Shown here: positions 11,236 through 26,007 of the stretch, piece after piece
How the letters are laid out: each line of letters opens with the position of its first letter
How positions within the stretch are numbered: the stretch's first letter is position 1
Source: Notamacropus eugenii
Lineage: Eukaryota; Chordata; Mammalia; Diprotodontia; Macropodidae
NCBI RefSeq assembly: GCF_028372415.1
Contig: NC_092875.1
Span: 50,778,771 to 50,842,770, forward strand
Direction: 5' to 3'
Length of the DNA stretch: 64,000 bases
Position numbers and translations under genes: made by a program
The notes under the pieces: generated by a model
What the model saw: the letters and a program-made list of their open reading frames with translations, nothing else
Told to the model about the DNA's origin: nothing
The model's database searches: none

Positions 11236-11325
11236 ATGCTGCTGGGTCCATTCACAAAAGCAGGTATCTTGGAGCTTCTACTGATGTCTCTCCTTCTATC
11301 CCAAGGGTCCATGAAATTTCACAAG
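11236..11325 (+). CDS. Exon 1: start codon and signal peptide of the colipase-like gene
   Basis: Thirty codons from ATG to a GTGAGA donor. A short polar stretch ending in Lys8 is followed by a hydrophobic core (residues 10-21, interrupted by Glu13) and a SQGS segment near residues 22-25 that would suit signal peptidase. The last residues, KFHK, are basic. The ATG sits three bases after TTTTCTTCCAG, which reads as a splice acceptor, so an upstream non-coding exon is possible. No clear TATA box was seen just upstream. The start was chosen because it is the only ATG giving a signal peptide that joins module 1 in frame. Confidence 0.72.

Positions 11326-26007: not shown

Follow-up and report, generated by a model that had tools for sequence, protein, structure and literature searches.

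A predicted secreted protein of Notamacropus eugenii with three half-colipase modules is very probably LRCOL1

Introduction

A 64-kb stretch of Notamacropus eugenii DNA (contig NC_092875.1, positions 50,778,771 to 50,842,770; hereafter the window) contains three exons that each carry the six-cysteine pattern of the first half of colipase, which raises the question of the gene to which they belong. The initial annotation had read them as part of a new colipase (CLPS) or CLPSL-type paralogue with a novel, possibly marsupial-specific architecture. Based on its protein family and on the genes conserved on one side of it, however, the gene is very probably the N. eugenii LRCOL1 (leucine-rich colipase-like 1), in which the colipase-like module is repeated in tandem.

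Results

Gene model and repeated modules

The predicted product of five exons is a small secreted protein in which a cysteine-rich module occurs three times. The features of this model, including the score of each module alone against the Pfam family PF15083, are as follows (aa, amino acids):

11214..11233, + strand: splice acceptor 5′ of the ATG, at the 99.1th percentile among AGs of the window
11236..11325, + strand: coding exon 1, start codon and predicted signal peptide (30 aa) with a leucine-rich hydrophobic stretch; donor at 11326
18741..18863, + strand: coding exon 2, module 1 (41 aa), six cysteines, C-terminal NPWRK; 28.5 bits
22579..22704, + strand: coding exon 3, module 2 (42 aa), six cysteines, C-terminal IPWRK; 40.4 bits
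22893..23012, + strand: coding exon 4, module 3 (40 aa), six cysteines, weak acceptor; 30.4 bits
25882..26007, + strand: coding exon 5, 41-aa basic tail lacking cysteines, then the stop codon; no Pfam match

Translation of the spliced model yields 194 aa (30+41+42+40+41), with each exon length divisible by 3. All four introns run from GT to AG, every junction is phase 0 and a stop codon closes exon 5, so that the canonical phase-0 junctions described initially were borne out, as was the order of a hydrophobic signal-peptide exon first and a basic tail exon last. When ranked with approximate splice matrices, the four donors all fell within the top 2% of GTs in the window, and the acceptors at 18741, 22579 and 25882 within the top 2% of its AGs. 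In a scan of 31 kb (+ strand), two candidates passed our thresholds for an ATG, a hydrophobic stretch and a donor; exon 1 was the stronger of them, and it was recovered at 100% identity in a search of its own genome. Because a strong acceptor AG ends at 11233, two bases before the ATG, the transcript probably has a 5′ untranslated exon upstream of coding exon 1.

Each of the middle exons carries C-x5-C-x3-CC-x9/10-C-x8/9-C, amounting to 18 cysteines. A regular-expression search of six frames found C-x5/6-C-x3-CC at exactly three places in the 64 kb, corresponding to the three modules. First-order Markov simulations yielded a mean of 0.005 chance matches to the six-cysteine pattern and never reached three (0 of 200), on which grounds chance open frames were rejected. 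Module 1 is 43% identical to module 2 and 37.5% identical to module 3 (over 32 aa), and the positions invariant across all three modules include all six cysteines. Differences at codon positions 1, 2 and 3 numbered 17, 15 and 24 between modules 1 and 2, and 19, 17 and 28 between modules 1 and 3, both with a third-position excess; between modules 2 and 3 they numbered 23, 19 and 22, without such an excess.

Family assignment

In an hmmscan search of Pfam-A, the spliced protein matched PF15083 (“Colipase-like”), which we take to be the LRCOL1 family, at 131.5 bits (E 1.2e-38; cut-off 27), while it scored 13.4 bits against the colipase N-terminal domain PF01114, under the cut-off of 27. Each module by itself also exceeded the PF15083 cut-off. 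This comparison with colipase profiles, which the initial annotation had proposed as a check, went against its assignment of the gene. Other Pfam rows (US22, Fer4_20, Toxin_19 and others) were weak, far below their cut-offs, and were taken as chance, and, when searched against the sequences of solved structures, the spliced protein had no match up to E 10.

The gene for true colipase lies apart from this one, on contig C2. A genome search with PF01114 gave a single match, of 67 bits, at C2:92828268-92828363, and did not list the LRCOL1 exons; tblastn with a CLPS query located the C-terminal half of CLPS ~2.2 kb beyond its exon 2. That exon, with boundaries set by eye, runs from GAA (preceded by CAG) to ACC (followed by GTGAGT), is phase 0 at both ends and encodes C-x5-C-x3-CC-x10-C-x9-C. 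Because of this shared phase and six-cysteine pattern, the LRCOL1 modules can be regarded as equivalents of CLPS exon 2, and the earlier term “half-colipase” is apt. CLPS (PF01114 and PF02740), however, has one such module followed by a four-cysteine C-half, whereas LRCOL1 has three N-half modules and no detected C-half: the same query that detects the C-half in CLPS gave no cysteine-matching match to it in the window.

CLPSL1 and CLPSL2 have an N-half cysteine spacing identical to that of the modules, but in a single ten-cysteine domain. In the window, tblastn with CLPSL2 weakly matched module 2 (E 0.013, 38% identity over one module). This match, together with the pattern and exon phase shared with exon 2 of the N. 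eugenii CLPS, would suit a new marsupial-specific colipase or CLPSL paralogue with a novel three-module architecture. Nevertheless, such a paralogue is highly improbable and was rejected on the grounds of family score (PF15083 far over its cut-off, PF01114 under it), LRCOL1 neighbours on one side, and the separate CLPS locus, the PF01114 genome search having passed over these exons; moreover, PF15083 includes the end of a preceding module (see below). The origin of CLPSL2 has been placed at branch 5, in the eutherian radiation (PMC13354781), so that marsupials may lack CLPSL2 itself.

A search of the genome with the spliced protein revealed no second convincing copy, its 14 rows consisting of the five own exons and nine matches at E 0.126 or worse. 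Residues 29-110 weakly matched C2:92811723-92811977 (E 4.13), an open frame ~16 kb from CLPS that might be a CLPSL-type exon.

Neighbouring genes

The 100 kb on each side of the window were searched by tblastn with human proteins. P2RX2 was located at window –12.5 to –20 kb (– strand), beginning ~24 kb from coding exon 1, followed by POLE at –47 to –73 kb (+ strand) and PXMP2 at –87 to –94 kb (– strand). A human 12q24.31-q24.33 table includes, in order, galnt9, fbrsl1, lrcol1, p2rx2, pole, pxmp2 and pgam5 (PMC6393686), a goat list gives FBRSL1, LRCOL1 and P2RX2 (PMC11213886), and one human enhancer groups POLE, PXMP2, PGAM5, P2RX2 and LRCOL1 (PMC11754661). The presence of P2RX2, POLE and PXMP2 nearby, seen against the human and goat lists, thus points to LRCOL1 with its neighbours kept on one side.

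The third module as a family trait

The protein aligned to PF15083 over the whole 89-position profile (residues 60-147 on positions 1-89), with module 2 on positions 15-54 and module 3 on positions 56-89. The stretch aligned ahead of module 2 is the C-terminal end of module 1 (12 residues), so that PF15083 itself models tandem modules.

We then scored altered versions of a 94-aa piece (module-1 end plus modules 2 and 3; base score 92.6 bits) against PF15083. Removal of the module-1 end lowered the score to 76.0 bits. Within this end, alanine substitutions yielded 89.6 (C), 88.0 (W), 89.7 (FF to AA), 89.1 (R), 90.9 (K) and 90.1 bits (P), while changing C to S, G, L or K yielded 89.1, 89.6, 88.3 or 87.7 bits, and W to L, S or R yielded 89.6, 87.4 or 87.0 bits. 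Alanine substitutions in the module-2 end yielded 89.5 (C), 88.0 (W), 89.1 (R), 90.9 (K) and 91.5 bits (P), and that of a core cysteine of module 2 yielded 89.5 bits; two control positions scored 93.9 (N to A) and 92.7 bits (E to A). The end of the preceding module therefore weighs like the end of module 2 and like a core cysteine in PF15083. On these scores, the first twelve positions of the profile are the conserved C-x-P-W-R-K end of a module ahead of the two that are modelled.

Because PF15083 conserves this end, a third module is probably normal in LRCOL1, the module number of placentals being read indirectly from a dissection that reaches the last cysteine and C-x-P-W-R-K of the preceding module, and not its first five cysteines. 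The claim of a novel marsupial-specific architecture could thus not be upheld. Alternatively, the gene could be LRCOL1 (with which this is compatible) while its full first module is lineage-specific, placentals having two modules and a remnant. The profile indeed begins only at the module-1 end, and human LRCOL1, 159 aa long, would fit two or three modules. We nevertheless consider this unlikely, as Cys, Trp, Arg and Lys carry equal weight in the tails of modules 1 and 2, and a lone conserved cysteine without a partner would be odd.

Some observations do weigh against our reading of the locus. The acceptor of module 3 at 22893 is weak, at the 85.7th percentile of AGs; FBRSL1 was not recognised in the 100 kb downstream among open frames of at least 70 aa with GC above 0.52; and, with regard to three modules as the family norm, fusing the signal exon to modules 2 and 3 also raised the profile score (80.7 vs 76.0 bits). 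A genome search returned 12 AUTS2-family rows, four of them at C14:50188164-50197106, which precedes the window by ~0.58 Mb and lies on the side of P2RX2. If this AUTS2-family gene is FBRSL1, the LRCOL1-P2RX2-POLE-PXMP2 block would be inverted relative to human. Compared with its family, the gene shares the whole-profile PF15083 match, the P2RX2-POLE-PXMP2 neighbours and the leucine-rich signal peptide, but differs in FBRSL1 not being found next door and in its WRK-A and WRK-M junctions, where the profile prefers proline.

The weak acceptor could also be a sign of a decaying pseudogene, or of exons that belong to different genes and are never joined by splicing. The gene model was built from genomic sequence rather than transcripts, the 7.4-kb first intron harbours a C6orf120 retrocopy and, by eye, transposon remnants, and modules 2 and 3 show no third-position excess. 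Five open exons with canonical in-phase junctions, retention of all 18 module cysteines, just one other and weaker signal-exon candidate within 31 kb, and the third-position excess of module 1 against both other modules nevertheless make decay or separate genes scarcely probable.

Discussion

The analysis leaves standing the secreted-protein model with three half-colipase modules, while it removes the claim of a new CLPS/CLPSL-type gene with an architecture of its own. In correcting that claim it gives the obscure gene LRCOL1 a clearer anatomy, namely that of tandem colipase-exon-2 modules whose C-x-P-W-R-K end motif is conserved at both junctions covered by the Pfam profile. No description of this anatomy was found in excerpts and titles of papers on LRCOL1 and PF15083 or in titles of papers on the colipase fold, family or domain, and papers on opossum and colipase held nothing on LRCOL1 by title. 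Tandem copying of a phase-symmetric exon leaves the reading frame intact, and the modules likely arose in this way.

The predicted protein starts with a signal peptide, continues with three six-cysteine modules in tandem, each a homologue of the colipase N-half, and closes with a short basic tail. Each module may be closed on itself by three disulfides (C1-C4, C2-C5 and C3-C6), like cystine-knot mini-proteins, so that three small domains would form a rigid chain; C1-C4 and C2-C5 are pairings known in colipase. Foldseek matched the predicted model of a single module best, although weakly, to procolipase (residues 12-55 of colipase), none of its 8 PDB matches having E below 0.001. The model also weakly resembled Dkk1 and cystine-knot peptides. 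The colipase fold is complete, with ten cysteines, in prokineticins and Dkk CRD2, but the LRCOL1 protein has no sequence match to these families above Pfam cut-off; prokineticins were absent from the Foldseek rows, which is uninformative either way.

The modelled likeness to colipase residues 12-55 might suggest a working lipase cofactor. However, no cysteine-matching C-half was detected in the window by the query that finds it in CLPS, and since it lacks the half needed to complete the lipase-cofactor fold, LRCOL1 most likely does not activate lipase, a colipase-like cofactor role being extremely improbable.

In human, LRCOL1 is expressed mainly in the epididymis; its expression in male germ cells falls under the detection limit in both mouse and human, and male mice lacking Lrcol1 are fertile (5 males, 20 litters, 187 pups) (PMC7401351). 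Lrcol1 ranks second in a table of adrenal-selective genes among 11 rat organs (PMC11327808), LRCOL1 has a fold change of –36.95 in a response table of bovine oviductal organoids from a heat-stress study (PMC10605953), and it has been described as a secreted, mainly hepatocyte protein of mostly unknown function (PMC12956004). We tentatively propose that LRCOL1 is secreted and binds extracellularly in the male tract and certain other epithelia, perhaps as a luminal male-tract secretion that acts at the surface of sperm or epithelium. Each module is of a size that can be made and tested singly.

A dibasic pair precedes every module (KK-I, RK-A and RK-M). Introducing a proline directly after WRK lifted the PF15083 score at both junctions (to 95.1 and 94.9 bits, or +2.5 and +2.3), whereas the N. 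eugenii protein has Ala and Met there (18849-18863 / 22579 and 22690-22704 / 22893), which might leave these junctions less protected against convertases. The dibasic pairs and the missing cleavage-hindering proline at both internal junctions might hint that, in this lineage, LRCOL1 is a precursor that, like those of peptide hormones, releases three free cystine-knot peptides or ligands after cleavage and trimming, although we deem this very unlikely.

Other elements in and around the window

The C6orf120 retrocopy in intron 1 (15080-15565, – strand) matched PF17065 (UPF0669) at 236.8 bits over 15080-15502; with ~65% identity to human C6orf120 and an in-frame stop, it is a processed pseudogene. 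Further into the intron, open stretches at 16974-17252 and 17702-18358 resemble, by eye, what is left of a reverse transcriptase and the 3′ terminus of a long interspersed nuclear element (LINE), with nothing above Pfam cut-off. A LINE-type reverse transcriptase fragment lies at 988-1269 (– strand; PF00078, 33.1 bits, cut-off 29.6).

Outside the window, at window coordinates 72055-73875 (L012:8055-9875, + strand), a single open frame of 607 aa encodes BTB, BACK and Kelch domains; 587 aa of it align at 67% identity with an ENC1/KLHL25-type protein. The human list has no BTB-BACK-Kelch gene between fbrsl1 and p2rx2 (PMC6393686). The frame is possibly an ENC-family paralogue (enc3-like) that was lost in placentals. 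Also outside the window, L014:1870-2400 (– strand) holds a coiled-coil open frame without a Pfam match that looks similar to a Rho guanine-nucleotide exchange factor.
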